NCBI RefSeq assembly: GCF_013342145.1 | Contig: NZ_JABUQZ010000001.1 | Location: forward strand, 992,001 to 1,056,000 | Direction of reading: 5' to 3' | Source of the DNA: Haloterrigena gelatinilytica | Lineage (GTDB): Archaea > Halobacteriota > Halobacteria > Halobacteriales > Natrialbaceae | DNA: 64,000 bases | Shown: positions 24,622 to 47,128 of the stretch, piece by piece | How the letters are laid out: each line of letters starts with the position of its first letter | Position numbering within the stretch: position 1 is the stretch's first letter | The notes under the pieces: model-generated | What the model saw: only the letters and a program-made list of their open reading frames with translations | What the model was told of the DNA's origin: nothing | Database searches by the model: none | Program-made: the position numbers and the translations under genes

Positions 24622-26169
24622 ATGAGCCAGACAACGCAACCATCGTTCACGGAGATAGCCGAGCGGAACCCGCTGGCTCACCCGACGGCGACGTCGATCC
24701 AGCTGTTCGACTACTCGCTGCCGCCGGGCCCGCACCTCAAAGAGTTCTACAACTCGCTGTGGAAGGCGGTCGACCCGGATTTTCCATACGCACCGACGAA
24801 AGTCGCTCGCCTGCTGCCTCGAGGACACGGCAAGTCCGAGGGCGCCGGCGTCGTGTTCCCGACGTGGGCGATCCTCGACAACCCGGGGATCCGCGTCGCG
24901 ATCATCGGGAAGACAGCGGGCCTCGCCGACGAGCGTTCCTCGAAGGTGGTCGACGCGGTTGAGACCTACGCGCCGATGTTCGGTGTCGAGCTCGAGAACG
25001 TCGCCGGCACACAGCTGACGACGGCCGCGAACACGCATAAGGAACCGACGATCTCAGCGTACGGCCTGGAGTCGAACCTCACGGGCCGGCACTTCGACGT
25101 GATCGTTTGGGACGACATCGCGGAGTGGGACAACCAGCGCACGGAGACACAGCGCCGGAACGTTCGGGAGTACTTCCAGGACTACGAGAAGAACCTGATC
25201 GATCCGGACTGCGTCCTCGAATGCGGCGGCGTCCAGGCGATGATCGGCACCCGGAAGCACCCGAGCGACTTGTACGCGACCGAGATCCTCTCGAGTGCGA
25301 CGTGGGACTGTAAGGCGGCGACTGCAATCCACGAGGACGACTGGCCGCTCGTCGAGGAGCGTGCCTGGAGCGTCCGCGGCGACGACGGTGTGATCTACGA
25401 CGACGTCGGCGACCTTCCGGCGGACGTCAACCTCGCGAACAACGGCGTGATCCCGGATCGGGATATGACCGTGCTCTGGCCAGAGCACAAGCCGGCATCC
25501 GAGCTGCTATTCGACATCGTCGACGGCGATGACAGCACGCCGATCTGGCGCCGGGAGAACCAGCAGGATCCGAACGCGCTCGCCGGCAGCGTGTTCAAAA
25601 GCGAGTGGCTGACCTACGTCGACGATCTCCCAAAACCTCGAGTAGCGTTCCGGTGGTACGCTGGGATGGACCTCGGGCTCGTCGAGGACCTCCAGCAAGC
25701 CGCGCAGGACGACACCGACTGGACGGCACTCGCTGTGGTCGCGTGGGATGACGACATCGGGCGTGGGTACCTGACGAAACTCGAGCGAGTGCGCGGCCTC
25801 TCAGTCAAGGAATCGGCCGACTGGGCCGTCGGACAGCTTGACGGCATCGACGTCGACGGGATGTTCGTCGAGCAGAACGCGAACCGCGGTGTTGCCCAGC
25901 GCCTTCGCGACGAGTCACCGATCCCGGCGGAAGGCGACACCTCGAGTGGCGATAAAGAGGAGCGGATCCACAACCTGTCGGCAGACTTCGAGTCCGATAC
26001 GCTTCGGATCGTCGGCGATCCGACCGACGACAAGTGGTACAACTTCGAGGTCAACGAGTGGCTGCAGTTCCCGAACGCGAGTCACGACGACCGCCTTGAC
26101 GCGATCGAGATCGCGATGCGGCACATCGACGCTGAGGACAACGAGGATCCGTTCATCGTTTCTCGATAA
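24622..26169 (+). CDS. terL: terminase large subunit
   Basis: 515 residues; packages DNA into proheads by ATP hydrolysis and cuts it. ATPase: Walker A LLPRGHGKSEG (about residue 67) and Walker B FDVIVWDDIAEWD (about 160). RNase H-like nuclease: GMDLGLVED (about 348), MFVEQNANRG (about 414) and ASHDDRLDAIEIA (about 488) supply the acidic metal ligands. Length is normal. 2 bp from the portal gene. Confidence 0.93.
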   Translation: MSQTTQPSFTEIAERNPLAHPTATSIQLFDYSLPPGPHLKEFYNSLWKAVDPDFPYAPTKVARLLPRGHGKSEGAGVVFPTWAILDNPGIRVAIIGKTAGLADERSSKVVDAVETYAPMFGVELENVAGTQLTTAANTHKEPTISAYGLESNLTGRHFDVIVWDDIAEWDNQRTETQRRNVREYFQDYEKNLIDPDCVLECGGVQAMIGTRKHPSDLYATEILSSATWDCKAATAIHEDDWPLVEERAWSVRGDDGVIYDDVGDLPADVNLANNGVIPDRDMTVLWPEHKPASELLFDIVDGDDSTPIWRRENQQDPNALAGSVFKSEWLTYVDDLPKPRVAFRWYAGMDLGLVEDLQQAAQDDTDWTALAVVAWDDDIGRGYLTKLERVRGLSVKESADWAVGQLDGIDVDGMFVEQNANRGVAQRLRDESPIPAEGDTSSGDKEERIHNLSADFESDTLRIVGDPTDDKWYNFEVNEWLQFPNASHDDRLDAIEIAMRHIDAEDNEDPFIVSR

Positions 26170-30686: not shown

Positions 30687-31820
30687 ATGTCGCGAGTTAC
30701 CTTCCAGAACACGGATGGTCTGACGCCGGAAGTGCTGCGGAACACGATGGTCGAGACCATCAACCAGATGGATCGCATCAACGTCAGCAACGACGAGGGC
30801 TACGCCTCGGCGCTGACGGTCTTCCCGATGGTGAACATGAACGCCCCCAAGGAAGGGTACTACACCTTCGGCGGCGTCTCCGGCGGGATGCCCGCCGCAG
30901 CGCCGGACGCCGAGTCGCCGCTGGGCGCGCTGACGCTCCCCTCGAAGACGAGCTACGACACTCACTCCTACAAGCGAAAAGTCAATCCCAAAAAGGAGCT
31001 CGAGGCTGAACTCGACTCGGCCAACGCTCCGTTCTCGCTGTTCAACTACGGCGCGAGCTACCTCAACGCGGAGACGTTCATCCGCCGCGAGATCGTCACC
31101 TGGCGTGGCGACGAGAACATCGACGGCCTGATCGGCCCCAACGGCGCCGACCCGCACCCGGACATCGAATCCGAGGGCAACGCCTACACGTCGCTCACTA
31201 GCTGGGACGATCACGCAGGAGCGACGCCCTACCAGGACGTCCTCGACATCGCGCACAACATCAAGACGCAGGGCCGGTTCATGGGCAACGAGAACCGCCC
31301 GCCGCTGTTCGCCGGTCCAGACGTCATCCGTGATCTCCGACTCAACGAGGACCTTCAGGACCGCCTCGGGATCACTCGAGACACCACGCTCAACACGGCC
31401 GACATCTCCGGGCTCATGAGCGACGATATCTCTAGCATCCGTGAGGTCGCGGTGCAGGTCCCGCGGACGAACGCCAACGGCGAGTTCATCGATGAGGAAG
31501 ACAACGTCGTCGATGAGGCCGAGGACGCCGTCATGGACAACATTCTCGAGCCGTACGACCCGGACTCGGGCACCAAGAATCGAAACATCGTGATCGGAAT
31601 GCCCGGCGTCGAGTCTGCGTTCATGCCGTGGTACCTGAACAAGCTCACCCAGCTGGCTGATCAGGCGCCGATGACGTCGTCGCTCTCTGTCGACTCCGAG
31701 CGCGGGTTCCTGACCCAGATGTGGAACGACGACGACCCGATCTCGACGTACATGGCCGCCAAGCAGGACATCGGCTTCCACCTGCGACGGCCACAGAACT
31801 GGGCGGTCGCTCAGGTGTAA
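30687..31820 (+). CDS. major capsid protein (HK97 fold)
   Basis: 377 residues located after scaffold and decoration genes. E-loop-like region around KKELEAELDSANAP, spine helix SWDDHAGATPYQDVLDIAHN, and a C-terminal P-domain ending MAAKQDIGFHLRRPQNWAVA, typical of haloarchaeal tailed-virus capsid proteins. A 45-bp gap with an A/T-rich stretch (CTACTAATACCTACAC) precedes the ATG, so an extra promoter is possible. Confidence 0.88.
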   Translation: MSRVTFQNTDGLTPEVLRNTMVETINQMDRINVSNDEGYASALTVFPMVNMNAPKEGYYTFGGVSGGMPAAAPDAESPLGALTLPSKTSYDTHSYKRKVNPKKELEAELDSANAPFSLFNYGASYLNAETFIRREIVTWRGDENIDGLIGPNGADPHPDIESEGNAYTSLTSWDDHAGATPYQDVLDIAHNIKTQGRFMGNENRPPLFAGPDVIRDLRLNEDLQDRLGITRDTTLNTADISGLMSDDISSIREVAVQVPRTNANGEFIDEEDNVVDEAEDAVMDNILEPYDPDSGTKNRNIVIGMPGVESAFMPWYLNKLTQLADQAPMTSSLSVDSERGFLTQMWNDDDPISTYMAAKQDIGFHLRRPQNWAVAQV

Positions 31821-32614: not shown

Positions 32615-33022
32615 ATGAACGAAAATTCCACGATCACTGTCTTGGCCTACACCGAGACCGGTGAGACCGAGGACGACGGCATGGGCGGCACCCAGCCGAT
32701 CGAGGACTGGGTCGTGATCGCCGAGGAGATCCCTGCCCGCTACTCCCCCGAGGGTAAAACGATCGTCGACGAGGACTCCGGCGAGCGCATCCAAGACACC
32801 GCTTTCGTTTCGATCCACCCGCGCCACATCGGCGAGATCGCCGGCGACGGTACCTACCTGCTTGACGATCGGCTCCGTCCAGGCGTCGATCGTCGCGTTG
32901 ATCTCCATCGTGGCGATCGCGAACCTCGCCGGCGATCGATCAAAAGCGTCGCCGAGGTGCTGGGCCCGAACGGTCGCGTCCCGAGTGCGGTTCGACTCGA
33001 GCTCGAGGTGGTCACATCGTGA
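32615..33022 (+). CDS. head closure/neck protein
   Basis: 135 residues, beta-barrel-like (STITVLAYTETGETEDDG..IPARYSPEGKTIVDEDSGE), ending SVAEVLGPNGRV..LELEV as in stopper proteins. The stretch RRVDLHRGDREPRRRS is unusually basic and could reflect a sequence change, but the frame stays open. Overlaps the next gene by GTGA. Confidence 0.6.
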   Translation: MNENSTITVLAYTETGETEDDGMGGTQPIEDWVVIAEEIPARYSPEGKTIVDEDSGERIQDTAFVSIHPRHIGEIAGDGTYLLDDRLRPGVDRRVDLHRGDREPRRRSIKSVAEVLGPNGRVPSAVRLELEVVTS

Positions 33023-33393
33023 TCTCTTTCAACTGGAAGAGCGGCCAGGGACCAGACGCGCTCGTCGAGGACCTCGAGACGTTCAAGGACGAGTTCTTCG
33101 GCCGCCTTGAGGACGATGTCGAAACGACAGTCGACGAGGCCGTCGAGGAGGCCCAGTCCCGTGCTCGTGTGGACACTGGCGAGCTCCGCGACTCGATCCG
33201 AAACAAAGTCGAGCAGATGACCGGCAAGATCGTCGCGCACCTGATCGCCGGCGCTGAGCACAGCGCCTACAACGAATTCGGGACGATCTACATGAGCGCC
33301 CAGCCGATGATTCGGCCGGCACTGCGGAAGGTCGAGCAGGATCTCGTCGATCGGATCACCAAAAGCTGGGATCAGGCCGCTCGAGCTCTTTGA
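33019..33393 (+). CDS. HK97 gp10-like tail-completion protein
   Basis: 124 residues. Signature ARVDTGELRDSIRNKV followed by HSAYNEFGTIYMSAQPMIRP, which is diagnostic for the HK97 gp10 family linking neck and tail. GTG start coupled to the upstream stop. Confidence 0.85.
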   Translation: MISFNWKSGQGPDALVEDLETFKDEFFGRLEDDVETTVDEAVEEAQSRARVDTGELRDSIRNKVEQMTGKIVAHLIAGAEHSAYNEFGTIYMSAQPMIRPALRKVEQDLVDRITKSWDQAARAL

Positions 33394-33395
33394 TC

Positions 33396-33878
33396 ATGCC
33401 ACACTCAGACAACGAGGCCGGCCTCACACAGGCAGCGCTCACGGATCTCCGAAGCTACGGCCCACTGCTCGAGGCGCTCGGCGACGGCGACTCTCCGGGC
33501 GATGCAACCGAGCAGATCCGGACCCCGCTTACCGCCCCCGATCCCGACGATATCCCGCCGGCACTGCTGATCATCGACGTCCAGGCCGTCGCCTCGGCGG
33601 ATCGTGGCGGCGCCGTCCTCGTCGACTACGAGGTCGAAGCCGGGCTCACCGTCACCGCCGGTTGGATCGAGGGCAACCGACCGGGCCCGAACCCCGAGAT
33701 CGCGTTCTCCCGGATCCTTGACGCCGTCAGTGAGCGAGCGAATGTCGGCTTTGGAGTCGACCACCTCGCACTCTCTGACGCGGGCACTGGCGGTGGGTCG
33801 GGCGTCCTCGAGTCGCCGATGGAGGCCGGGGAGAAGGGTGCCGCTCGGCTGTGGCAGTTCGAGCAGTCCCGCAACTAA
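33396..33878 (+). CDS. tail terminator-like protein
   Basis: 160 residues; alpha/beta with LLIIDVQAVASADRGGAVLV and an ISF-type helix (SRILDAVSERANVGFG). Position between gp10-like and tube genes matches the tail terminator that caps the tube. Confidence 0.6.
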   Translation: MPHSDNEAGLTQAALTDLRSYGPLLEALGDGDSPGDATEQIRTPLTAPDPDDIPPALLIIDVQAVASADRGGAVLVDYEVEAGLTVTAGWIEGNRPGPNPEIAFSRILDAVSERANVGFGVDHLALSDAGTGGGSGVLESPMEAGEKGAARLWQFEQSRN

Positions 33879-33880
33879 CC

Positions 33881-34204
33881 ATGTCAGTCTACAGAAACCA
33901 GAAAGGAACGCTGTCGTGGGCCGGCTCTGACCGCGCCTACCGCCGCGGCGAGATCATCGTCGATCCGCCCGAGCACATCCTCGAGAAGTTCGGCGACGAC
34001 TTCGAGCGCCTCGACGATCCCAAGACGGGCGCGATCGACCGCGACATCCTCGAGGGCCTCAAGTATCGCACGCTGCAGCGGATCGCAGCGAGCGATCTCT
34101 ACGACGCCGTCGACGGGAACTCGACGAAGGCGGCGATCCTCGAGGCCGTCAGCGCCGGCGGCAATGAAGGCGATGACAGCGAAGGCGAACCGACCGACGA
34201 GTAA
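33881..34204 (+). CDS. small tail-associated protein
   Basis: 107 residues: SVYRNQKGTLSWAGSDRAYR, RGEIIVDPPEHILEKFGDDF, then a helical Rho-N/LEM-like end (RIAASDLYDAVDGNSTKAAI). Family unknown; conserved place before the tube gene. Confidence 0.5.
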   Translation: MSVYRNQKGTLSWAGSDRAYRRGEIIVDPPEHILEKFGDDFERLDDPKTGAIDRDILEGLKYRTLQRIAASDLYDAVDGNSTKAAILEAVSAGGNEGDDSEGEPTDE

Positions 34205-34244
34205 CCGCCCCGATCCCGGATAGCGATCGGACCGACAACACGCT

Positions 34245-34748
34245 ATGAACGCAAATCCCAACACCGAAGCGAACTTTCAGGGTCGATGGGTCGACATCGG
34301 CGTCGTCACCGACCTCGGCACCACAGAGGAAACGATCGAATGGCTCGACCACGTCTACGCGGACACGTCAATCTCGAAGGACTCCGACAGCGACGAGTTC
34401 CAGTACAATGGCTCGCAGTACACGATCACCGAGGAGGGTCACGTCACGCGCGAAGCCGAGTTCGGGATCTATCCGGACTCCGAGAATGCCGATCTCCAGA
34501 CGCTCGGTCTCATCGACGCAGACGGAGCTGAACTCCACAACGTCCGCCAGGAGGCAGTCGTCTTTGTAATCTGGCCGAGCGCCGATGAAACCGACGACAC
34601 GACCGCGATCAAGCGCGTCGGCGAGAACGTTCGCGTCCAAACCGGTGAGGAGAGCCTGTCCGACGGGCCCTACGAGTTCACGTTCACGCTGTTCATCGAG
34701 GGCAAGTACTGGTTCGACGGCGCCGCAGCACTCAATGGCGGGAGCTGA
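34245..34748 (+). CDS. major tail (tube) protein
   Basis: 167 residues, beta-sandwich pattern (QGRWVDIGVVTDLGTTEETI, EFQYNGSQYTITEEGHV, YEFTFTLFIEGKYWFDG). It precedes the tail chaperone pair and tape measure gene, the invariant place of the tube protein in siphoviruses. Confidence 0.75.
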   Translation: MNANPNTEANFQGRWVDIGVVTDLGTTEETIEWLDHVYADTSISKDSDSDEFQYNGSQYTITEEGHVTREAEFGIYPDSENADLQTLGLIDADGAELHNVRQEAVVFVIWPSADETDDTTAIKRVGENVRVQTGEESLSDGPYEFTFTLFIEGKYWFDGAAALNGGS

Positions 34749-34754
34749 TCATAC

Positions 34755-35399
34755 ATGTCCCAGGCACCCACCAAGCCGCCGGAGCCGGAGGATCGTGCGG
34801 AGGTTCTCGAGGACCTCGGCGGCGAGAATGTTGACGAGCAACTCGAGCGCGGTGAGGAAAAGCATGAAGCCGCCGAGGCTGAACGCCAAGAGCAGAAACA
34901 GGAACAACTCGAGAGCGCTGCCGACGGCCAGGCGATCGAGGACTGGCTCACCCAGGAGACGACCCGCGACGTCGACACGATCTCGTTCCGTGGCCGTGAG
35001 TTCGAGTTCTCTCAGCCCGGCGTGATCCACCGCCGGCAGACGATGAAGATCCTCTCCGAGTCGGACCCTGAGACCTTCGAAGATGTCGACCCTGACGACG
35101 ACGAGGCAGTCAACGAGACGATCGAGGAGAACCTCGACCCCGAGTCGATCAAGAACGTTGTGGGGCTCTACGATCACCAGCTCGAGACGATCACCGAGCT
35201 CTGCACCGACCCCGTGATGGGTGACGAGACCGTTCCCGAGGGCGACGATCTCTCTCGAGGCGCCCAGCGTTGGGGTCGATTCAAGCTCGAGGACGAGACC
35301 GACGCCGACGGTAACGTCATCAAGGAGGGGCTATCGACGCTCTCTCAGCAGGTCGTCGCCGAGCGCCTCGAGGCGACCGACGAGGGCGAGGGAAATTAA
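34755..35399 (+). CDS. tail assembly chaperone, short (G-like) product
   Basis: 214 residues in frame 0, ending at TAA 35397. N-terminal coiled coil rich in Glu/Gln, then a compact domain (VDTISFRGREFEFSQPGVIH). It lies between tube and tape measure genes, where lambda carries G and GT. The last codons GGA AAT are followed directly by the stop; -1 slippage there yields the long form. Confidence 0.8.
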   Translation: MSQAPTKPPEPEDRAEVLEDLGGENVDEQLERGEEKHEAAEAERQEQKQEQLESAADGQAIEDWLTQETTRDVDTISFRGREFEFSQPGVIHRRQTMKILSESDPETFEDVDPDDDEAVNETIEENLDPESIKNVVGLYDHQLETITELCTDPVMGDETVPEGDDLSRGAQRWGRFKLEDETDADGNVIKEGLSTLSQQVVAERLEATDEGEGN

Positions 35400-35614
35400 C
35401 TCCCGACGAACGTGAGGCGATCGACGACTTCGTCGGGCGCGACGACTACTACGGCGTCGCCTGGATGGAGGTCGTCGTCGAAGGGCTCGGGAAAACGCCG
35501 ATCGAGTTCGGCCAGGATACGGAGCCGAAAGAGCGCTACGCGATCCGGCAGTACGTGCGCTCGAAGGCCGCAGCCAAGCGTGAGCGGGCCGAGCAAGCCA
35601 ACCAGAACAACTAG
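34755..35614 (+). CDS. tail assembly chaperone, frameshifted (GT-like) product
   Basis: A second frame, shifted by -1, runs open through 35381-35614 and encodes TPDEREAIDDFVGRDDYYGV and 50 more residues, with no good start of its own. Slipping at GGGAAAT (35390-35396) would fuse 72 residues to the 214 of the short form (286 in all). This mirrors lambda gpG/gpGT, which chaperone tape measure and tube assembly. Confidence 0.75.
35390..35437 (+). promoter_or_regulatory. programmed -1 ribosomal frameshift signal
   Basis: Slippery heptamer G GGA AAT (35390-35396), then 5 spacer bases including the frame-0 stop, then CCCGACGAA (35402-35410) and TTCGTCGGG (35429-35437), a perfect 9-bp stem with an 18-nt loop. 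Lambda uses GGGAAAG at the same gene. Confidence 0.8.
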
Positions 35615-35644
35615 TGGAGTTGAGAACGTTTTTCATACTACGCC

Positions 35645-35992
35645 ATGCGCTCGCTACTCTCCAGTTCGGACACTGCTCACGTCGTCGACGCCGAGCAACT
35701 GCCGCCGGCGCCGGACGGTCGACAGTATCGCTACGAGGTTGTCGTTCAACTCGACGACGCGGTCGACTCGGCGCCGTCGGACGACGACGTTCGAGAGATC
35801 GCCGACGCTGTCCTCGAGGCGATCGCCGAGATCGACGATCCAGACTGGCCGGGCGCCGACGAGCTGTATATCCAGATCTACGGACCCGATCGCGAGCTCG
35901 ACGCCGGTGCCTGTGGGACGGCCCACTGGGTCGCCGGCGACTACGAGTCGATCGAAACTCGATCGTACTTCTTCGGAGGGGTTGGGGCATGA
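35645..35992 (+). CDS. hypothetical tail-region protein
   Basis: 115 residues, acidic, alpha/beta ferredoxin-like pattern (RYEVVVQLDDAVD, DVREIADAVLEAIAE, ELYIQIYGPDRELD). Start at ATG 35645, overlap of 4 bases with the next gene. Not recognised. Confidence 0.55.
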   Translation: MRSLLSSSDTAHVVDAEQLPPAPDGRQYRYEVVVQLDDAVDSAPSDDDVREIADAVLEAIAEIDDPDWPGADELYIQIYGPDRELDAGACGTAHWVAGDYESIETRSYFFGGVGA

Positions 35993-36195
35993 CCGACGAC
36001 GTCGTCCGCCCGCTCGGCCCGCTCGCCGAGTTCCGGGAGTACGCGAAAGAGGAGCGCGACGCGGCCCGTGAGCGCGGGAACCGCGCCGGCGCCCTCGCCT
36101 TTGATGACATCGTGAACAAGACGAACGAACTCGAGCGTGAGGCGATCGCCGACGGGATCCCGCTGCAGCTCGATCTCTCGGAACTCGAAGACTGA
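35989..36195 (+). CDS. hypothetical small helical protein
   Basis: 68 residues, mostly helical and charged (EFREYAKEERDAARERGNRA). ATGA-coupled to the previous gene and placed before the tape measure gene. Role unknown. Confidence 0.55.
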   Translation: MTDDVVRPLGPLAEFREYAKEERDAARERGNRAGALAFDDIVNKTNELEREAIADGIPLQLDLSELED

Positions 36196-36298
36196 CACTC
36201 CGTCTTTCTCGAGAAATACCTGCCGTATAGCGCGATAACCGCCCCACTGCAGCCGATTCTAAGATGATCGAAATCCCCCGTGAGCGAGGTGTGTAGCC

Positions 36299-39103
36299 GT
36301 GGGTGCGCTTTCAGAACTTCGTGGCTCGATTGAGATAGATCACTCCGGAGCCAAGTCCGCGATTGAGGACGTCCAAGGCCAGGCCGAAGACATGGGCTCG
36401 TCGTTCGAGTCGACTGGCCAGCGGATGCAATCCGCAGGGAAGTCCATGACTGCCGGCGTCACGGCCCCGCTTGCTGCGATGGGCGGTGCAGCGGCGAAGA
36501 CTGCTGCTGACTTCGAGAAATCGATGCAGTCGTCCATCGCGATCATGGGCGACGTCTCGAACGCCGAGCGTGAGAAACTCGAGAAGACAGCCCGCGAGGT
36601 TGCGACAAGTACATCCAAATCCCACGAGGAGGCCGCCAATTCGTACTACTATCTCGCATCTGCTGGCCTCGACGCCGCCGATTCGATGGAGGCCATGCCG
36701 CAGGTCGCCGCGCTCGCGGAAGCCGGTCAGATGGACATGGCCGAGGCGACCGACATCGCCACCGACACGATGTCGGCGTTCGGAATGGAGGCCTCCGAGC
36801 TTTCCCGTGTGACGGACACGATGGCCGGGACGGTCAACCGGCACAATCAGACGATGCAGGGGATGGGGTCGGCGATGAGCCAGGTTGCGCCGGTTGCATC
36901 CGGTCTCGGGATGTCGATCGAGGAGACCTCGGCCGCAATCGGGATGATGGGCGACGTCGGTATCAAGGCCGAGAAGGCTGGTACCGGTCTCCGATCCGCT
37001 CTATCTTCGCTGCAGAACCCGACTGGGAAGGCTGCCGAGACGATCGAGGCTCTCGGCATCAAGGTCAACGACGCCGAGGGGAACATGCTCCCCCTCCACG
37101 AGATCATCGGCCAGCTCGAGGAGAGTGGCGCCAAGACAGCCGACATCATGGCCCTGTTCGGGAACCAGGCTGGACCGGCCATGCAAGCTCTCGTTGATCA
37201 GGGTAGTGACGCACTCCGTGATGAGGCGGAAGCCCTCTCCGAACTCGACGGCGAGACGCAGAAAGTCGCCGAGACGCAGCGAGACACGCTGCACGGCTCG
37301 ATTGAGATGCTCAAGTCGTCGGTCGCTGACCTTGCGATCGAGTTCGGCAGTGTACTGACGCCGTACATCCGGCAGGCTGCCAACCTCGCGACGAATCTTG
37401 CAGATCGGTTCTCGGGGCTCGGAAGGACGACACAGACAGTTATCGTCGCCGTCGGCGGGGTTGCTGCGGCGCTCGGCCCGCTGCTCATCGCGTTCGGTGC
37501 GCTTATCGGCCCACTTTCGACGGCTGTGGGTACGCTCGGAGGTCTCACTGCGGTACTCGGGCCAGTTACTGGTCTCGTCGGTAGTGTGATCGCCCCACTC
37601 AGTTCTCTGACAGCAATAGTGAGTGGACTCTTAGCGCCACTCACTGGCCTCGTTGGGACAATGGGGTCGTTCGGTGCTGCTGTGGTAGGAGTCCTCGGTC
37701 CGATCGGCTTGCTCGTGGCAGCCATCGGCGGAATCGGCTATGTTCTGAGTGAAAACAGGGAAGTGGTTCGCAAGTTCGCCAATCAGGCGATCGGGAAGCT
37801 GAAGAGCGTCGCATCAGGCGCGGCCACGTGGCTGGAGGCGAACGGGCCCAGTCTTCTCAAATCCGCCTTTAGGAAGATTGGGGAAGGTATCCGGTTCATC
37901 GCACTTGATATTTACAATGCGGTTACCGGGAACGGTGATTCGATTATCAAGTCGATGATCATCGACGCGGGGTCATGGCTGATCAACGAAGGACCAGGGA
38001 TCCTCAAGGCAGCCGCGAAACTCGCGTTCGACGCGATCATGGCTGCTGCCAAGGGGCTCTACCAGGGCCTGATCGGCAACAGCCTAATCCCTGAGATGTT
38101 CCAGGCGATCGGCGCCTACATCAAGTCGACCGCGGTCTCGCTGATCCAGACGGCCATACAGACCCTCGTCACCCGCGTTACGACGCTTTTCACCACCCTG
38201 AAAACGAAGACGGTCACGACGATCACGAACTGGGGTAATCGGATCGGAACCCTCGCAACGAACGCGAAGAACAGAGTCGTCACGTCAGTCACGAATCTGA
38301 AAAACCGAACGGTCACGCTGGTCACGGGTCTCAAGAATCAGACAGTTACGCAGTTCACGAACCTGAAAAACCGAGTTACGTCATCGATCACGAATGCCAA
38401 GAACACGGTCGTTGCGACTGCTACGAATCTGAAAACGCAGACCATCAGCCAGTTCACGAATCTGAAGAACACTGCGACCTCTCGAGTGACGTCGCTTAAG
38501 GACGACGCCGTCTCGGCAATAACTACCCTGAAAGACGACACGGTCGGCGAGCTCCGGTCGATGGCCGACGACGCTGTCGACGAAGTCAGCGAGATGGCTT
38601 CGGATCTCCTCGACGAGGTCGACATCGCGAACAAGTTCAAAAACGCCGGTGGTGACCTGATCTCATCATTCGCGGATGGGATTCGCAACTCAGTCGGTGA
38701 GGCAACGAGCGCCGTCTCAGGAGCAGTCGATGATGTGAAAAGCTATCTGCCGAGTTCACCAGCCGACAGAGGTCCGCTAAGCGGTGATGAGTGGATCTAC
38801 GGCCTCCCCGAAGCGATGATATCGGGAATGGAGGACCGCGTTCGCGAACTTTCGTCAGCTTCGGCGATGATCGCCGACGCGGCTCGGCCAGATCCCGATG
38901 CGCCCAACGTCCCAATGCCGACCCCACAGCCCGCGGGCGGCAACGGCCGTCAGTCCTCGCGGCGGCGCGATGACGAACGCCGGGTCATGATCGACTTCGG
39001 CAATCTCCCGCGGGACGCTCTCGTCTCGATCGGCGACCTCGAGGACATGGCCGACGAGGCCGTCCGCAACCGCCGCCGGCGCGAAAAGAATCGAACTGCG
39101 TAA
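36299..39103 (+). CDS. tail tape measure protein
   Basis: 934 residues; sets tail length and is injected with DNA. Residues 60-330 match the TP901-type tape measure domain (TAGVTAPLAAMGGAAAKTAA, EEAANSYYYLASAGLDAADS, MGMSIEETSAAIGMMGD-like). A hydrophobic Gly/Ala/Leu-rich central zone (about 375-480) includes likely TM helices. A hendecad repeat follows (about 625-755), then an acidic/basic C-terminus. GTG start at 36299; a tail of this size suggests roughly 140 nm by the usual length rule. Confidence 0.92.
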   Translation: MGALSELRGSIEIDHSGAKSAIEDVQGQAEDMGSSFESTGQRMQSAGKSMTAGVTAPLAAMGGAAAKTAADFEKSMQSSIAIMGDVSNAEREKLEKTAREVATSTSKSHEEAANSYYYLASAGLDAADSMEAMPQVAALAEAGQMDMAEATDIATDTMSAFGMEASELSRVTDTMAGTVNRHNQTMQGMGSAMSQVAPVASGLGMSIEETSAAIGMMGDVGIKAEKAGTGLRSALSSLQNPTGKAAETIEALGIKVNDAEGNMLPLHEIIGQLEESGAKTADIMALFGNQAGPAMQALVDQGSDALRDEAEALSELDGETQKVAETQRDTLHGSIEMLKSSVADLAIEFGSVLTPYIRQAANLATNLADRFSGLGRTTQTVIVAVGGVAAALGPLLIAFGALIGPLSTAVGTLGGLTAVLGPVTGLVGSVIAPLSSLTAIVSGLLAPLTGLVGTMGSFGAAVVGVLGPIGLLVAAIGGIGYVLSENREVVRKFANQAIGKLKSVASGAATWLEANGPSLLKSAFRKIGEGIRFIALDIYNAVTGNGDSIIKSMIIDAGSWLINEGPGILKAAAKLAFDAIMAAAKGLYQGLIGNSLIPEMFQAIGAYIKSTAVSLIQTAIQTLVTRVTTLFTTLKTKTVTTITNWGNRIGTLATNAKNRVVTSVTNLKNRTVTLVTGLKNQTVTQFTNLKNRVTSSITNAKNTVVATATNLKTQTISQFTNLKNTATSRVTSLKDDAVSAITTLKDDTVGELRSMADDAVDEVSEMASDLLDEVDIANKFKNAGGDLISSFADGIRNSVGEATSAVSGAVDDVKSYLPSSPADRGPLSGDEWIYGLPEAMISGMEDRVRELSSASAMIADAARPDPDAPNVPMPTPQPAGGNGRQSSRRRDDERRVMIDFGNLPRDALVSIGDLEDMADEAVRNRRRREKNRTA
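38178..38560 (+). repeat. 33-bp/11-residue hendecad repeats in tape measure gene
   Basis: About eleven tandem units of the pattern T-N-L-K-N-x-x-V-T-x-x (e.g. TNLKNRTVTLV, TGLKNQTVTQF, TNLKNRVTSSI, TSLKDDAVSAI). Eleven-residue periodicity favours a right-handed or straight coiled coil. Nucleotide units are about 33 bp and diverged. Confidence 0.75.
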
Positions 39104-39112
39104 TCCACATTC

Positions 39113-39610
39113 ATGCCAGATCTGCCGAAATCAGTCCCGAGGACCGCATGGTACGTCTATCTCTATGACGGCACCGAGGAGTACGTCACGTTCGCAGACG
39201 GCCTCGTCGAGGAGATCCCGCCGCGGACGGTCGCCGAGAGCGGCTCGTGGCAGTTCAATTTCCGCCACGATCCCGCCGGTTCCCGGAGCTACGATCCGCT
39301 CGAGCACACGGACCGCTACGAACGCGTCGTTGAGATCGGCCGTTGGGCCGGACGCTACGTTCTCCGCGAGCCCCTCGAGGCCGAACCACGCTATCGAGAG
39401 CAGGTCCCACCAGGGAATCCGTCACTGCTCGTCGGCCTCCAGCCAGCCTACGAGACGCCAGCCGGTGGCGTCTGGGGGCTCGTCGACGGCTACGACGAGA
39501 CGAATGCGCTTCCCGAAACGGGGCTTACCGTCACGCTCGACGTGACGATGCTCGCGACGACCGACGACTACGAGACTCGCGACGAGGTCGTCGCCGACCT
39601 GTCCTTCTGA
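39113..39610 (+). CDS. distal tail protein-like
   Basis: 165 residues right after the tape measure gene; beta-rich (WYVYLYDGTEEYVTFADGLV, WQFNFRHDPAGSRSYDP). Position and size fit a distal tail or tail-tip adaptor. No diagnostic motif. Confidence 0.5.
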   Translation: MPDLPKSVPRTAWYVYLYDGTEEYVTFADGLVEEIPPRTVAESGSWQFNFRHDPAGSRSYDPLEHTDRYERVVEIGRWAGRYVLREPLEAEPRYREQVPPGNPSLLVGLQPAYETPAGGVWGLVDGYDETNALPETGLTVTLDVTMLATTDDYETRDEVVADLSF

Positions 39611-39621
39611 CCTGACCACAC

Positions 39622-40497
39622 ATGCACGAGTACCAAATCGGCCACGCACACACGGCACTGACGCAAAACCAGAACAGGCGAGCCACCCGCGGCGACGGCG
39701 TCCTCGAGGGCTGCCAGGTCTCGGCGGGCGACTCGAGCTCGAGCGTCGAGACCGAAGTCGACGGTGGCTACGTTCAGATCGACGGCAACGTGCTCGAGTT
39801 CGCGCCGACCGCTGTCACTCATCCGGACGGGTCTGGTGATCCTCGGCGCGACGTTGTTCTCGTCCAAGACGCCGGCGACGGGACTGGCGAGGTCTTCGTC
39901 CAGGAGGGAGATCCTGGCTCGTGGCCGACCGACGACTCGGGCAACGAGTACCGTCACGCGAACGCCTGGCAGCCCCAGCCACCCGATACGGCTAGTAGCG
40001 ACGCGGTCGTCCTGGCTATCGTCTCGATTGGGCCTAACGCAACACAGTCGTCCGGGATCAGCGACGTCGAGGACCGCCGGCGTGAACCCGCACCGTCCGG
40101 CCGACAGGGCTGGCAGCAACCCAACATCACGACCCCAACGGTCAATCTCGAGAGCGGCGACTTCTACGCCCAGCCGCTGGCGATTCCCGGCGATTCGTGG
40201 CTCCACGTCTGGTCGGTCGCACAGTATCGCTTTCTCGAGGGATCCAGGGCGTCGTGGGATTCCAACTGGGAACTCTCAATCATGGAGCCCGGTGACCTGG
40301 ATACCGCCGCCCAGTCGACGATCGCCGAATCCGAGTTCGTTGGCGGCGATCCCGTCTGGCAAATATCGATCGGCGGATCTCCCAACGAGATCCAGCCCTA
40401 CTGGATCCAACTGCACAACACCGGGAGCAGCGACATGGATAACGAGGAGTACTGGTCGGCCCAGCTCGCCGTGACGGTCGACCGGAGGCCGATCTAA
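39622..40497 (+). CDS. tail-tip structural protein
   Basis: 291 residues: N-terminal half shaped like a baseplate wedge/receptor domain (VLEGCQVSAGDSSSSVETEV, VVLAIVSIGPNATQSSGISD), C-terminal beta-sandwich with Trp-rich strands. Directly followed by a GTG start with no gap. Family not recognised. Confidence 0.5.
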   Translation: MHEYQIGHAHTALTQNQNRRATRGDGVLEGCQVSAGDSSSSVETEVDGGYVQIDGNVLEFAPTAVTHPDGSGDPRRDVVLVQDAGDGTGEVFVQEGDPGSWPTDDSGNEYRHANAWQPQPPDTASSDAVVLAIVSIGPNATQSSGISDVEDRRREPAPSGRQGWQQPNITTPTVNLESGDFYAQPLAIPGDSWLHVWSVAQYRFLEGSRASWDSNWELSIMEPGDLDTAAQSTIAESEFVGGDPVWQISIGGSPNEIQPYWIQLHNTGSSDMDNEEYWSAQLAVTVDRRPI

Positions 40498-41631
40498 GTG
40501 GCGCTCCCCGAGACGCCTCCAGGACGAACGGCAGGAGGGCCGGCGCCGATGACTGCCGGCGGGCCGCAGCCTGGCGTCGCCGGCTCCCTGGAGTCCTACT
40601 CCCCAACCGATCCCGGAGACGTCCCGTCGCGGTATTCGATCCACCTCGAGCGCAACACCGGCGAGACGCGGACGCTCACCGATATCGAGTCGATCGACGT
40701 CGTCCGCGAGCATACGGATTCGTCAGACTGGCAGGCGACCGTTCCCGAGGATCCGACGCTCCCCGAGTGGCGGTTCGCCAACGTCGAGGTCCGATATCAG
40801 GGCAACACGCTCTTTACCGGAACACTGCAGCGCGTCGATCCTTCGGTCACGGATGCCGAAACCGTCCTTGAGGGATACGGGCCCGGCTCAGCGATCCGCT
40901 TCGGTCACGTCCGAGTTGAAGAGCAAAACGCCAACCTCTATCGAGTGATCGAGCGCGTTTGGCGCGACCATACGCCCTTCGACGCACTTGTGTTGAGTCC
41001 GGAAGAACCGCAGACGTTCTCGAAGGTTGAGCTTTCCGGGACGCCGAAGTCGATCCTCAAAGAGCTCCACGACCGCGCTGGGATGCGGTTCTACTTCACG
41101 ATGCTCCCAACGGACGGTCCCGACGTGATCTCGTTCCGGCCAGGACGGCTCGTCCGACCAAGCGGATGGACGCGGATTGATATCGATCCACGCTGGGACG
41201 TCGGCGACTACCGCAACGCCGTCGTCGTTGAGGGCGCCTACTCCGAGGAGCTCGGCCGGCGATATCGTGGCGAGGCTGTCGATGCTGAGGAGGTCGATCG
41301 TGTCGGGGAACGTCTCGAAGAGTCCATCGGTCCCGAGCCCGATCTCGAGAGCGACGAGGACTGCCAGCAGATCGCCGACAGCACTCTTGAGGATCGGCTT
41401 GCAGAGGATCAGCAAGAGGGCTCGGTCGACATCCTCCCACGGCTGCTACCGCCAGGGGTGCGCGTCAACGTCCCGTACTACGGCGAGATGCGAGATCTCG
41501 AGCGCGTCTCCTACCAGGAGAGCCTCGGAGAGGCGAGCGGGACGCTCGATATCGAGCGTCCGTACTCGGTTGCCGAGCGTACTGAGGAGGTTGACGCCGA
41601 CCTCAGCAGCACCAAGGAGATGATTCGCTGA
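40498..41631 (+). CDS. tail hub/baseplate-like protein
   Basis: 377 residues. Pattern YSIHLERNTGETRTLTDIES, VRYQGNTLFTGTLQRVDPSV and ILKELHDRAGMRFYFTML resembles the Gp27/prophage tail-hub (gp44-like) fold that forms the trimeric ring under the tail tube. N-terminal 40 residues are Gly/Pro rich. GTG start; overlaps the next ATG. Confidence 0.65.
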   Translation: MALPETPPGRTAGGPAPMTAGGPQPGVAGSLESYSPTDPGDVPSRYSIHLERNTGETRTLTDIESIDVVREHTDSSDWQATVPEDPTLPEWRFANVEVRYQGNTLFTGTLQRVDPSVTDAETVLEGYGPGSAIRFGHVRVEEQNANLYRVIERVWRDHTPFDALVLSPEEPQTFSKVELSGTPKSILKELHDRAGMRFYFTMLPTDGPDVISFRPGRLVRPSGWTRIDIDPRWDVGDYRNAVVVEGAYSEELGRRYRGEAVDAEEVDRVGERLEESIGPEPDLESDEDCQQIADSTLEDRLAEDQQEGSVDILPRLLPPGVRVNVPYYGEMRDLERVSYQESLGEASGTLDIERPYSVAERTEEVDADLSSTKEMIR

Positions 41632-42371
41632 TGCGCGGCTATCCAGCTGGTGCTGGCGGGCTGTCGGCATCGGCCGGCGGCCTCGTTGACGGTGTTGATC
41701 GCAGCTTCTTCGACAACTTCGAGGAAGACCGGATGGCAGCGTACTACGAGCGTTCGACTCTCGGCGAGACTACGCTCGTCGACGACGCCGGATACCACAC
41801 GGCCCGCGGGCTGCGACTCGAGGGATACAACTTCTTGTGGACGGTCCCGGGTTCTGGTTTCGAGCGCTACCCGGACACAGACGAATGGATCATCTACGTG
41901 ATGACGATCGACAACTGGGAGAACGTCAGTCAGATCTGGTTCCCAGTTTTCGGCGATCCGAGCAATGAGGGCGATCGGGATCCGAGCTACGAGATCCAGA
42001 TCATCAACAACGACGAAACGTTTCGGATCCAATCGCGGGACAACTCCGACAACAAGGAAGACGTCGCGACCGATGCCGAGAGCGACCAGACCTACGACTG
42101 GTTCTCGACCGGCGTGACCTACGCCGTCGGAATCTATCGCAAGCCCTCGGGCGGCGTTCTCGGCGGGCTGTGGGATGCGAACGCGGACTATCCGCTCGAG
42201 TCTGAGGCGATTGCGTACATCGATTCGGCGGACCATCCATACGATGACGGGAGCAGTATCGACGGGATCGGCCCGGATGACGGCCCTGGACGTTGGGGCT
42301 ATCGGACTGGTGACAACGTTACCCTACGCGTTCACGAGGTTGAGCGCGTCGAGCCGCCAGAAGAAAACTAA
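41631..42371 (+). CDS. LamG/concanavalin-like tail protein
   Basis: 246 residues. After a Gly-rich N-terminus, DRSFFDNFEEDRMAAYYE..HTARGLRLEGYNFLWT and FSTGVTYAVGIYRKPSGG follow the beta-jelly-roll pattern of LamG-like carbohydrate-binding domains. Probably a surface-binding component of the tail tip. Confidence 0.5.
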   Translation: MRGYPAGAGGLSASAGGLVDGVDRSFFDNFEEDRMAAYYERSTLGETTLVDDAGYHTARGLRLEGYNFLWTVPGSGFERYPDTDEWIIYVMTIDNWENVSQIWFPVFGDPSNEGDRDPSYEIQIINNDETFRIQSRDNSDNKEDVATDAESDQTYDWFSTGVTYAVGIYRKPSGGVLGGLWDANADYPLESEAIAYIDSADHPYDDGSSIDGIGPDDGPGRWGYRTGDNVTLRVHEVERVEPPEEN

Positions 42372-42388
42372 CCAGAGACAATTCAACT

Positions 42389-43507
42389 ATGCAAACTGAT
42401 TACGTCAAAGGTGACGATCGACCGATCATTCGAGACCAGCTAACACGCGGGCGAGCGACGATCCCGCTCAGCTCAAACGATACTGTCCATCTCTACATCG
42501 AGGATCCCGAGGGAGAGATCTTCATCGCCGACCAGGCGACGATCGCGGATCGGCCAGAGAGTCGTGTCGAATACGAAATGGATGGGGGGTGGCCGCTCGA
42601 GGGAACGTATCTCGGAAGGTGGGTTATCAACTACGACGATGGCGGGACTCAGACGGTTCCGAACGGATCGCCTAAGGAAATCACAGTCTGGGATACGCTC
42701 AATCGTGATGCCGATGTGCGTGACTATGACGATCCCGATATTTCGGTCTCGAATGTGTGGACTGATCACCTCGGAGCCAACACCGCCCAAGCCGTTACTG
42801 TTGGATCTCCGCTGGATCTCGGCGGGAACGATATCTCGGGCATCGGATCGGCCGACGCTGAATCGCTCAATGCAGGGTCCGCGGAGATCAGCGGCCAGAC
42901 GGCCGCGACCGAGAACTGGGTCGAATCGAGTGCTGACGTGTCGAGCCTCAACGGGCTCACGTTCGATGACGTCACTGGGGACTCGCGATACTACACGATC
43001 AACTCCGGAAATGGAACTGAGTACTTCAAACTTGTCTCACTTAAAGACAAGAGCTCGGGGACCAATGGTGGTGGGGCAATTCGGTGCCAACTCCACTTTG
43101 CCGAGGGTCGAGGGGGTTCTCCGATCCGGACCGTCGACTTCTATATCTTCGCAAAGGGAGATGCGTTCAGCGCCGAGTACACCGACTACGGCCAGCACTT
43201 CAGGAACGACAACGTCGACTTCGTGGTCACTGAGGACCCTGGAGACGGGTCTGCCACCGACCACCAGTACCACGTCTATGTCCGAGCAGATACGTTTCTG
43301 GCTACCGGCGTCTCTGTCACACCCGGACAGTGGTTCGGCTCCCACGACTGGCAAGCCGGTCTCTCCGAAACCGATCTGATCGGGACCACGGTTTACGACA
43401 CGGGGGCGCAAGAACCCGACCGAGTCGTCCGTGCTGGGGAGATGTATTCCTCGGGCGACCGGGTGGCGACTCGAGAGTGGGTTCAAAACAACTTCCAGAG
43501 CAAGTGA
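42389..43507 (+). CDS. baseplate upper/tail fibre protein
   Basis: 372 residues. N-terminal BppU-like domain (IRDQLTRGRATIPLSSNDTV..GTYLGRWVINYDDGGTQTVP), then fibre segments with the repeated pattern ATENWVES and ending VATREWVQNNFQ, common in phage tail fibres. Links the baseplate to host-binding parts. Confidence 0.65.
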   Translation: MQTDYVKGDDRPIIRDQLTRGRATIPLSSNDTVHLYIEDPEGEIFIADQATIADRPESRVEYEMDGGWPLEGTYLGRWVINYDDGGTQTVPNGSPKEITVWDTLNRDADVRDYDDPDISVSNVWTDHLGANTAQAVTVGSPLDLGGNDISGIGSADAESLNAGSAEISGQTAATENWVESSADVSSLNGLTFDDVTGDSRYYTINSGNGTEYFKLVSLKDKSSGTNGGGAIRCQLHFAEGRGGSPIRTVDFYIFAKGDAFSAEYTDYGQHFRNDNVDFVVTEDPGDGSATDHQYHVYVRADTFLATGVSVTPGQWFGSHDWQAGLSETDLIGTTVYDTGAQEPDRVVRAGEMYSSGDRVATREWVQNNFQSK

Positions 43508-43648
43508 TTGGCTCTAAGGCTGGAATGAGCACAAGCCGACACCGCGCTTCCGCTGAAAGAATGTGTCTCAGAAAGGAGAGAAGTCTTCCGAGGCGTGTAC
43601 CACACCGTTTAGACTTACACTAAGGCCGGATCCCGACCGACAGCAATC

Positions 43649-45760
43649 ATGACCACACACAAAACCCGACCCGACTACGTCCGCAAGCGAGGCGATAGCT
43701 ACATCCCGATCGAGGAGACGTTCCGTGGCGAACCACCAGCTTCGAGGCCGATCAGTGACGGCGACCCACTCGATCTGAGCGACGCCCTCTCTGTTCGGTT
43801 CTACCTCGAGCACACGACCCGCGACGAGACGATCGTCAACGACGTCGCTAGCGTTGACGACCCAGAGACAGGCGCAGTCAGCTACCAACTCGAGACAGAC
43901 CAGCTGTCGCGAACTGGTACCCACGCCGGCGTCTTCGTCGCCCGCTTCGAAGATAACCAACAGTGGTCAGCCCCACGTGGCAATCAGGTCATCACGATCC
44001 AGATCGTCGACGTCCCTGACGCCGATGGCGATCCCGGCGATATCGAAAAGGCCGACGTCTCGATCGGCGTCCTCGAGGCCGACGAGGTGATCGGCGACTC
44101 GGGAGGCTTTGGTGAGTTGAGTGTCTCGAATGCGCCAGTCGACGATACTGATGTGCTTCGGAAAGCGGACCAACAGGACCTCAGTGACGACGTCACCCAG
44201 CTTCAGACCAAGACGAGCAGCTTGTCAGATGATGGCAGCTCGGGTAATTTTGAGGCACTGGAAATCTCGAGCCAGGATGTCGCTACGAAGGACTACGTCG
44301 ATACCCGGCCGTGGGAGGATCTCACTGACTGGAATATGTTCAACCCCTTCAACGCGGGGTATCCAGGGGATGGGTCCGGAGGCGATCTGATGGACTACAT
44401 CCGGGACCTTATTTCCGACTACGACCGGATCTATATGGTCCTTCCCGGGGGCACTTACAACGTCGAAAGCGAGTTGAATGTCCGTGACTCAGATCTCGAG
44501 CGCCTAGTGATCGACGGCCGGCCGAAGGCCACTCTTAATGTCAACGGGCGGTTTCACAAGCTGTTCGAGACGGGCGACTACGAGGGCGGAAATGCGATCG
44601 AGAGTCTGGGGCTATACAATCTTGATATAGACATCACCGGAGACTCTAATGACTGTGGAATTGGACGGATCACAGTAGAGAACTCACTGGATATTGAGAA
44701 TATCCGGCTTATCGGAAAGCGAGACCGAGTAACTGACACGACCGGCGATCGGTTCACACTACTTTGCCAGATCGCCTCAGAGAGTGGCCACGGCACGGTT
44801 CGGAACGTCCATCTCCGCGACGGTTCTGTGCCGAACGGATACGAGAACAACGAGGTTATTGGTTTTAGCGCCGACCCCGGCCACCATGGGACGATCGACT
44901 GGATCGGGTGTGAGGTCCATGGATTCAACGATAACGGGGTGTACGTGAACGGAAGTCCTGGGTCGAACAGGGTCATCGGTGGTCTATACCAGAACAATGC
45001 GAAGGCGAATGTCAGGATCGGCCGCAACGACACGGTCGAAAACGTTGTGAGTATCTTCAATCTCGGGCACGTGGATGGGCCTGCTCGACCGGATGGATGG
45101 GATTTACAGATGGATCCCAACCTACTGGACGTCGACGATTCGAACGGCGCAACGTCAGTCCAAGGCGCGAAGCTCATCAATCTTAGTAGTACCAACTCTA
45201 CTATATCGGCCCGAGAGAACGTCGAGACACTTCGAATCGCGGATATTGAGGTGTACCACGAGGTTCCTTATGAGGTCATACGAATCACCTCGAGTAGGAA
45301 CTCTATCGCGGATGACAACTACGAGTATCGAAGCTACCAAGATAATGAAGGGACGGTCCGAATCGAGGGAGGTCTGATCTATGACGTGTCGAACGACTCC
45401 GTTAAGAACAGCGCGATCGATTCGAACGTCCATAACGTAGTCGTCGATGGCATTACGTACATCTGCAAGGATGGTGGCGGCGAGCAGTATCGTGCTGCTG
45501 TCAGGGCATCGACCGATCGGTCTAAGATTACGATCCAGAACTCAAACATCATCTCCGAGCTGAGCCATGGGGCCGTCTGCCGGGTAGACACTGGGGGGAC
45601 GGTCAACGTCGTCCAAAACTCGGTCGACTGTGAGTACTACTCGATTGGGTCTGGCGGGAACCTACGACTCGTTGACAACGACGAAGTGAATAGCGCGATC
45701 GGCCACTACGACGACCCGGCGAATTGGGCGGCCAACTTCGTGGAACGGGGCAATTTCTGA
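43649..45760 (+). CDS. tail spike with beta-helix
   Basis: 703 residues. BppU-like N-terminal domain (LSDALSVRFYLEHTTRDETI, HAGVFVARFEDNQQWSAP), the fibre motif VATKDYVDTRPWEDL, then a right-handed beta-helix from about residue 250 (LVIDGRPKATLNVNGRFHKL, HGFNDNGVYVNGSPGSNRVI) of the pectate-lyase/tailspike type. Likely binds or degrades host surface polysaccharide. The gap before it (43508-43648) contains an AGAAAGGAGAG stretch and a TATA-like CGTTTAGACTTAC. Confidence 0.75.
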   Translation: MTTHKTRPDYVRKRGDSYIPIEETFRGEPPASRPISDGDPLDLSDALSVRFYLEHTTRDETIVNDVASVDDPETGAVSYQLETDQLSRTGTHAGVFVARFEDNQQWSAPRGNQVITIQIVDVPDADGDPGDIEKADVSIGVLEADEVIGDSGGFGELSVSNAPVDDTDVLRKADQQDLSDDVTQLQTKTSSLSDDGSSGNFEALEISSQDVATKDYVDTRPWEDLTDWNMFNPFNAGYPGDGSGGDLMDYIRDLISDYDRIYMVLPGGTYNVESELNVRDSDLERLVIDGRPKATLNVNGRFHKLFETGDYEGGNAIESLGLYNLDIDITGDSNDCGIGRITVENSLDIENIRLIGKRDRVTDTTGDRFTLLCQIASESGHGTVRNVHLRDGSVPNGYENNEVIGFSADPGHHGTIDWIGCEVHGFNDNGVYVNGSPGSNRVIGGLYQNNAKANVRIGRNDTVENVVSIFNLGHVDGPARPDGWDLQMDPNLLDVDDSNGATSVQGAKLINLSSTNSTISARENVETLRIADIEVYHEVPYEVIRITSSRNSIADDNYEYRSYQDNEGTVRIEGGLIYDVSNDSVKNSAIDSNVHNVVVDGITYICKDGGGEQYRAAVRASTDRSKITIQNSNIISELSHGAVCRVDTGGTVNVVQNSVDCEYYSIGSGGNLRLVDNDEVNSAIGHYDDPANWAANFVERGNF

Positions 45761-47128
45761 ATGAACCCACTGAAAGCAATCCTCGAGTGCCTTGAGTGGC
45801 TACTCAGAGGACAAGACCGAGACAATAGGACAGACACAGAACCAGAACCGGAAGAACCTGAGGAACCAGAACCGCTTGAGGCGCTCGACCTCGAGTCTGA
45901 CGACCAGCAACAGGCCGGACAGAGCCACCACTCCGGAGTTCGAATTCGTGCAGAGCAAGATCTCGAAGGCCTCGAGTGCCGAATCTCCGACCAGACATCC
46001 GGCCTCGTGATGGCCTACCTCAAGGACGGCGGTGGCGACATCCTCGAACGGCGGTCGATCGATACTCTCGAGGCGGGCGACACCTTCACGTTCACGACGC
46101 CTCTCGAGGCCGGCAAAGGCTATCAGGTCGTTTGCGCTGCCGGCGGAGCTCCCTACGATCGTGGTCGGAGCCATGTCGAGTATCCCATCAAAAGTGAGGT
46201 GTTAGTCGCGACGGCCGGGATCTACACTGGAGGCGGTACCGAGACGACGAGATACTGCTACAACATCGACCAAATCCGTCCGCTCCGGTCGGTCGAAGAG
46301 GACCAACCACAGGTGGCTCTCGGCGCCGTGAAGCCATCTGATCCGATGCCCGACTATCACTCCGCAACTGGCCTCGAAGCTACTCGAGGCGAGAACTGCT
46401 ACGTCGTGGATGACCCTGCGGGCGGTGACGAGAAAGTGCTCGAGGTATTCTACCCGGAGGAGGAAATTCTCGGAATCAACGAACGAGTGTACCTCGAGAA
46501 CGCGGTCGGGTATGAGCCGAAGGTCGTGCATGGGCGATACGAGATATTCTTCCCAGAAACCTTTGAGATCAGACAGGGCTATCATCACGGTGGGACGAAA
46601 CTACCGGGAGTAGCCGACCACCGTGGCGACCCGCCAGACAATGAGGGTGGCGGTGCTGGCGGGGTGCGCAACCCTGGGTCGTATTCCGACCGTAAATTTG
46701 CCTCGAGCCGAGACGGTCTCTATAACGAGACTGTTGGAGCGGACATCCCGATCAACAGCCAAGTCTACGACGCGACGTACGATCCTCGGAAACATCCGTA
46801 TGGCTGGCACCACTGCTGGTCGAAGGGAGTCAACAAGGGGTCGTGGTACACGATCGACTACCGGACGGTACTCAACACGCCGGGGGAGTCCGATGGCCGA
46901 ATCCTCGGGTGGATAAACGGCGAGCTCGCGTTCGATAGCGATGAGTTAGCCAAAGAAGACGATGAGTTCGACGGCTATCTATTCCTTGAAGAGAAGTTCG
47001 CCGAACGCGGTATCCCGTACTGGCGTCGGCACTACCACTACGGCGGGGAATGGGGCAGTCCGAAAGACCAGTCACTCTACGAGCGGAATCTCTCGATTTG
47101 GGTCGACGATAACGTCCCGGAAATGTGA
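45761..47128 (+). CDS. polysaccharide lyase-like (PL14-type) tail enzyme
   Basis: 455 residues, starting directly after the spike stop. An acidic linker (EPEPEEPEEPEPLEALDLES) leads to a small beta domain, then from about 205 a PL14-like jelly roll: VYLENAVGYEPKVVHGRYEI, FFPETFEIRQGYHHGGTKLP and GWHHCWSKGVNKGSWYTIDY. The KLPG segment and WxxWxKG pattern recall PL14 lyases. Probably an EPS/capsule depolymerase. Last gene of the late operon. Confidence 0.6.
   Translation: MNPLKAILECLEWLLRGQDRDNRTDTEPEPEEPEEPEPLEALDLESDDQQQAGQSHHSGVRIRAEQDLEGLECRISDQTSGLVMAYLKDGGGDILERRSIDTLEAGDTFTFTTPLEAGKGYQVVCAAGGAPYDRGRSHVEYPIKSEVLVATAGIYTGGGTETTRYCYNIDQIRPLRSVEEDQPQVALGAVKPSDPMPDYHSATGLEATRGENCYVVDDPAGGDEKVLEVFYPEEEILGINERVYLENAVGYEPKVVHGRYEIFFPETFEIRQGYHHGGTKLPGVADHRGDPPDNEGGGAGGVRNPGSYSDRKFASSRDGLYNETVGADIPINSQVYDATYDPRKHPYGWHHCWSKGVNKGSWYTIDYRTVLNTPGESDGRILGWINGELAFDSDELAKEDDEFDGYLFLEEKFAERGIPYWRRHYHYGGEWGSPKDQSLYERNLSIWVDDNVPEM

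Follow-up and report, generated by a model that had tools for sequence, protein, structure and literature searches.

The 64,000-nucleotide stretch of Haloterrigena gelatinilytica DNA analyzed here (assembly GCF_013342145.1, contig NZ_JABUQZ010000001.1, positions 992,001 to 1,056,000; hereafter the window) lies within a 4.55-Mb, three-contig genome and carries a tailed provirus. In the tail region of this element, a gene for a candidate tail-assembly chaperone ends on a slippery heptamer and is continued, in the -1 frame, by an extension that lacks a start codon near the junction. The features of this region, together with what was found at the two homologous loci L001 and L002, are as follows:

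34245..34748, forward strand: candidate major tail (tube) protein gene, 167 amino acids, so labeled from its position and size; directly upstream of the chaperone gene
34755..35399, forward strand: frame-0 tail-assembly chaperone candidate (G-like short form), located between the tail-tube candidate and the tape measure gene, with 98% and 80% identical homologues in the same place
35390..35396, forward strand: slippery heptamer G_GGA_AAT (GGGAAAT), read from the sequence; GGGAAAC in L001 and L002
35402..35437, forward strand: candidate stimulatory stem-loop of doubtful role, 9-bp stem and 18-nt loop; identical in L001, altered in L002
35396..35614, forward strand: extension of 72 codons in the -1 frame, closed by TAG (the T-like part in a putative GT-like fusion); 54/72 residues identical to L002
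35645..35992, forward strand: small open reading frame (ORF) between the chaperone and tape measure genes, conserved in L002, with a sub-threshold Pfam match to DUF7543
35989..36195, forward strand: small ORF of 68 amino acids, known from its translation
36299..39103, forward strand: tape measure protein gene, 934 amino acids (phrog_1533, E 1e-125; PF10145, E 6.7e-51)

The frame-0 ORF (34755-35399) encodes 214 amino acids and closes with the codons GAG GGA AAT TAA, such that the heptamer is in frame as G_GGA_AAT and directly abuts the TAA stop at 35397-35399. After a slip of one base backwards, reading would restart at TTA (35396-35398), give LTPDEREAIDDFVGRDDYYGVAWMEVVVEGLGKTPIEFGQDTEPKERYAIRQYVRSKAAAKRERAEQANQNN and end at the TAG at 35612-35614. 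Already open from 35315, the -1 frame continues for 72 codons past the slip. An earlier note on this DNA, made from the letters alone, had described the frame-0 ending, the heptamer and a 72-codon open -1 frame, and on direct reading it was correct letter for letter. Its statement that the -1 frame has no start codon holds near the slip, with ATG, GTG and TTG all absent between 35315 and the ATG at 35465, but fails further in, where this ATG (codon 24) and a GTG at 35555 lie within the extension. The residues encoded upstream of codon 24 are LTPDEREAIDDFVGR...

Comparison with the two homologous loci of the 214-amino acid protein provides much of the evidence that the extension is translated as part of a fused product. 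L001, whose protein is 98% identical, is a viral contig of 45.6 kb that also appears among the contigs of a congeneric genome; L002, at 80% identity, belongs to Halostagnicola sp. A-GB9-2. In both, the heptamer is GGGAAAC and is read as G_GGA_AAC. L002 has diverged from the window locus at synonymous sites (dS 0.7-1.1) and carries 6 nt inserted between the heptamer and the stop, with both frames preserved. Its frame-0 gene differs from that of the window with a non-synonymous rate (dN) of 0.13 and a dS of 0.71, and the -1 extension, despite having no start of its own near the junction, likewise evolves as protein-coding sequence, with changes distributed 12/11/31 over the three codon positions and a dN/dS of ~0.15. 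The 23 extension codons that precede the first ATG behave similarly (15/23 residues identical; dN/dS ~0.13, from few sites). Among the 13 glycine codons conserved between the window gene and L002, the one at the slip site is the only one that is GGA in both. Taken together, the conservation of the heptamer, the selection ahead of the ATG and the retained slip-site GGA make a fused product more likely than separate initiation at ATG 35465. Five low-scoring matches in other genomes of the family (E 0.001-0.006) were set aside as likely chance.

How often such an arrangement would arise by chance was assessed in 390 genes picked from 400 kb of the host plus the window, counting heptamers of the form X_XXY_YYZ, with Y being A or T, that are in frame and end within 9 nt of the stop. 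This gene alone carries one (1/390, against ~0.00075 expected per gene), and in-frame X_XXY_YYZ heptamers with Y as A or T occur about once per 5,300 codons. In the host sample, GGA accounts for 10% of glycine codons and AAT for 10% of asparagine codons. A -1 frame that remains open for at least 60 codons beyond the stop is found in 161 of the 390 genes (41%) of this GC-rich genome; because it is so common, an open -1 frame by itself is no evidence of frameshifting, and we rejected it as such.

Based on these observations, the locus is very probably a G/GT-type tail-assembly chaperone gene of a haloarchaeal tailed provirus, with a programmed -1 frameshift predicted at 35390-35396. This is the best-supported reading of the sequence, and it draws on gene position, the conservation of the heptamer, purifying selection acting in the -1 frame ahead of its first start codon, and equivalent annotated cases; the candidate slippery site itself is well supported. 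The gene order runs from the tail-tube candidate through the chaperone candidate, the -1 extension and two small ORFs to the tape measure gene, which places the chaperone candidate where a G/GT gene belongs, between the tape measure gene and a tail-tube gene that is itself labeled by position. The heptamer, the frames, their conservation and selection, and this gene order are read directly from the DNA, and from them we infer the slippage and its frequency, and the part that two products would play in assembling the tail. In such a scheme, most ribosomes would stay in frame 0 and terminate at TAA 35397-35399, giving the 214-amino acid short form. A smaller share, holding tRNA-Gly on the GGA codon and tRNA-Asn on the AAT codon, would slip one base back at 35390-35396 onto GGG AAA and read 72 further codons, giving a 286-amino acid fusion. 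If the pair works as lambda gpG/gpGT does, the short form and the fusion would each coat the tape measure protein, with the extension bringing in tail-tube subunits.

Slippage of the G/GT type has long been known from phage lambda, and the window locus resembles lambda gpG/gpGT (G_GGA_AAG) in its position before the tape measure gene, in the G_GGA_AA core and in having a -1 extension on a small, abundant short form. It differs in its archaeal rather than bacterial host, in the A-site codon (AAT for Asn, against AAG for Lys in lambda) and in a function that here we infer. Among haloviruses, -1 frameshifting is predicted in the tail assembly chaperones of HCTV-1, -2, -5 and HVTV-1, according to passages in PMC5009743 and PMC8211752. 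The HCTV-1, -2 and -5 records annotate the chaperone as a joined coding sequence, and from each we re-derived a single in-frame heptamer that yields exactly the annotated -1 end. The studies that reviews cite for the HCTV and HVTV-1 frameshifts are reportedly Sencilo 2013 and Pietila 2013. These four viruses were independently isolated and belong to other families, with extensions of 62 to 164 codons and no stem comparable to that of the window; in HCTV-2 the heptamer stands directly before the stop, as it does here. In Hardycor1, a tailed Halorubrum virus, G_GGA_AAT has been reported at the equivalent gene, HrrHc1_110/115 (PMC7911831, MT152698), and the site, re-derived from its record, yields the annotated end. 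Hardycor1 thus has the identical heptamer late in the gene that precedes the tape measure, followed by a -1 extension, but its heptamer lies 15 nt before the stop, its extension has 99 codons, it has no comparable stem, and its chaperone has no detectable protein similarity to that of the window. The frameshift site is therefore not new in kind, since published haloviral cases, including the identical heptamer in Hardycor1, precede it. A +1 frameshift has also been proposed in the HF1 group (PMC7230728). According to a review, the only experimentally shown programmed -1 frameshift in archaea is that of fucA1 of Saccharolobus solfataricus (PMC8211752), which differs from the present case in being a cellular enzyme gene of a thermophile, with an A-rich slip site, and not a tail gene. 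In the literature examined we found no experimental demonstration of a -1 site in an archaeal virus. To the few such sites known, the window locus contributes a candidate that is clean and conserved, and with it archaeal -1 slippage in the absence of a conserved RNA structure becomes directly testable.

Several findings weigh against this interpretation. Between the extension and the tape measure gene lie the two small ORFs, a position in which HCTV-1 also has ORFs; the search for homologues of this particular chaperone yielded just two, one with 98% identity; and AAT in the A site is less prone to shifting than AAG in E. coli. Profile searches of PHROG, Pfam and PDB returned no usable match for the 214-amino acid protein or its extension, neither of which falls in any Pfam or PHROG family, and there were no homologues of the former in the phage collection or of the latter in phages. 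A profile comparison with a group of related proviruses that carry T_TTT_TTG, described below, gave only short, weak matches. We treat a family match as supporting rather than strictly defining, given how divergent the known chaperones are, and the chaperone label thus rests on position and architecture. An AlphaFold2 model of the 214-amino acid protein, built from three sequences, had a mean predicted local distance difference test score (pLDDT) of 47, too low for fold comparison, and suggests no more than a helical protein with one beta-hairpin.

Other explanations for the two frames must be set against programmed slippage. The extension could be an independent small gene that starts at ATG 35465, either by re-initiation after the TAA or from a site of its own, and this ATG is in frame and is also present in L002. 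However, the sequence upstream of it offers neither another -1 frame start back to 35315 nor an obvious Shine-Dalgarno-like sequence, and an independent gene would leave the unusual heptamer unexplained. Because the extension evolves as protein throughout, including the 23 codons ahead of the ATG, we consider this arrangement improbable. Transcriptional rather than ribosomal slippage would likewise join the two frames. It is known to need much longer homopolymer runs, whereas GGGAAA has just three identical bases in succession, and we give this route very little credence. Much the same is true of decay or a sequencing error, in which the -1 frame would be the remnant of a formerly continuous reading frame: the element, being integrated, could be in decay, yet two other genomes show the two frames in the same relation, the L002 insertion preserves both frames, and the frame-0 part and the extension are both under purifying selection.

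A programmed frameshift at the heptamer is also compatible with the proposal of the earlier note that the hairpin at 35402-35437 is an essential stimulator, completing a cassette in which every element of the signal is present. Direct reading confirmed the geometry described there, with a spacer of 5 nt (TAACT, 35397-35401) and arms CCCGACGAA (35402-35410) and TTCGTCGGG (35429-35437) that form a perfect 9-bp stem around an 18-nt loop. The spacing is that of textbook cases and falls in the 5-9 nt after the heptamer where we looked for a conserved stem-loop or pseudoknot. When folding begins at the nucleotide after the heptamer the stem is the minimum free energy structure (z -2.0), and it is identical in L001. 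When the upstream sequence is included (35380-35450) a different structure has the minimum free energy (z -0.8), and when folding begins 4-5 nt downstream of the heptamer the region is ordinary (z -0.4 to -1.0). L002 has lost the three outermost G-C pairs; the six inner ones can still form, one of them changed on both sides and two of them G-T, but these begin 14 nt after the heptamer, a shift of 6 nt downstream, and the region folds no better than shuffled sequence (z near 0). No perfect stem longer than 4 bp was found at the -1 sites of HCTV-1, -2, -5 or Hardycor1. Perfect stems of at least 9 bp follow 2 of the 390 gene stops and 28 of 3000 random positions (0.5-0.9%), making them uncommon by chance but not remarkable. 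The stem, which is weakly supported, may help slippage in this clade; that it is an essential, conserved part of the signal is unlikely. The complete cassette is accordingly not demonstrated. Of the conservation that the earlier note suggested checking in relatives, GGGAAAN is retained in L001 and L002 and the stem is not retained in L002 or at the four known haloviral sites. Its central proposal of a programmed -1 frameshift in an archaeal tail-assembly chaperone is supported by gene position, heptamer and -1 frame selection; its claim for the stem was overstated.

Related proviruses suggest that other slip signals may serve the same gene. Where tape measures are 46-50% identical to that of the window, the preceding gene has a -1 site, mostly T_TTT_TTG/C, and an extension about as long as the one here, which adds support to the frameshift reading. 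Upstream of tape measures ~45-50% identical to that of the window, T_TTT_TTG or T_TTT_TTC occurs in frame at L036 (HJTV-4), L037 (Humcor1), L038, L039, L040, L043, L044, L045 and L081, 69-78 nt before the 0-frame stop and with -1 extensions of 69-74 codons. Purifying selection past the stop was seen in the pairwise comparisons L039/L043, L044/L037 and L036/L039; L038 vs L039 and L038 vs L043 were out of register and were excluded. A matching -1 extension is also present at L034, L035 (Halorubrum tailed virus from Deep Lake) and L041, where the slip place has only T_TTT, which suggests single-tRNA slippage, and at L042, where it has TTTTT. At L050 (G079:C1 near 1839.5 kb) and L051 (G011:C1 near 340 kb), the gene preceding the tape measure continues into a conserved +1 frame extension, FWFELLALFGLTPGEWGELR, and both share GAG TTT CTC near the stop, an arrangement that would fit a +1 slip at TTT_C. 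The related -1 extensions and that of the window have in common a P-x-E-F/W stretch (once P-x-D-F), and in a profile comparison with the T_TTT_TTG-group extensions P-x-E-F was all that the window extension shared, too short a match to prove homology. No consistent downstream stem was found across the slip sites tested. Since G_GGA_AAY, T_TTT_TTG/C, T_TTT and +1 TTT_C all occur near related tape measure genes, we tentatively suggest, at somewhat less than an even chance, that haloarchaeal provirus tail modules keep a two-frame chaperone while its slip signal turns over, and that haloarchaeal ribosomes would slip at set levels on a heptamer and rare-codon context alone.

Several deposited haloviral genomes have no annotation of the -1 extension, among them HJTV-4 (L036, 114-449) and Humcor1 (L037, 2387-3013), in which T_TTT_TTG is followed by such an extension. 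Separately, the related chaperone genes at L082-L086 have only T_TTT, without a full heptamer, at the slip position.

The remainder of the provirus is recognizable from the following genes:

17307-19409: MCM helicase
24622-26169: large terminase
~28 kb: Mu-F-like protein, with a bit score just below the Pfam cut-off
30687-31820: weak major-capsid match
33019-33393: HK97-gp10-like neck protein

The candidate tail-tube gene (34245-34748) had no significant match to a Pfam or PHROG family. The tail module (window 32628-46557) shares ~90% DNA identity with L088, which is a contig of 45.6 kb from a congeneric genome. The head and packaging genes (~24-32 kb) hardly match that contig, a contrast that indicates module exchange. 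In L002, the Halostagnicola provirus, an inserted stretch of ~42% GC parts the chaperone region from the tape measure gene. It carries a 528-amino acid ORF (L002:5390-6976, minus strand) that has no Pfam or PADLOC match and includes the sequence RNGIVH, an RX4H pattern resembling the one in HEPN nucleases. Just downstream of the provirus tail genes, the window encodes a zinc-ribbon protein with an Mrr-type restriction endonuclease domain (47739-49079, minus strand), a possible defense gene. At 14802-15437, on the minus strand, lies a 211-amino acid fragment of an IS605-type TnpB/OrfB with a Cas12f-like C-terminal domain, which is probably truncated.
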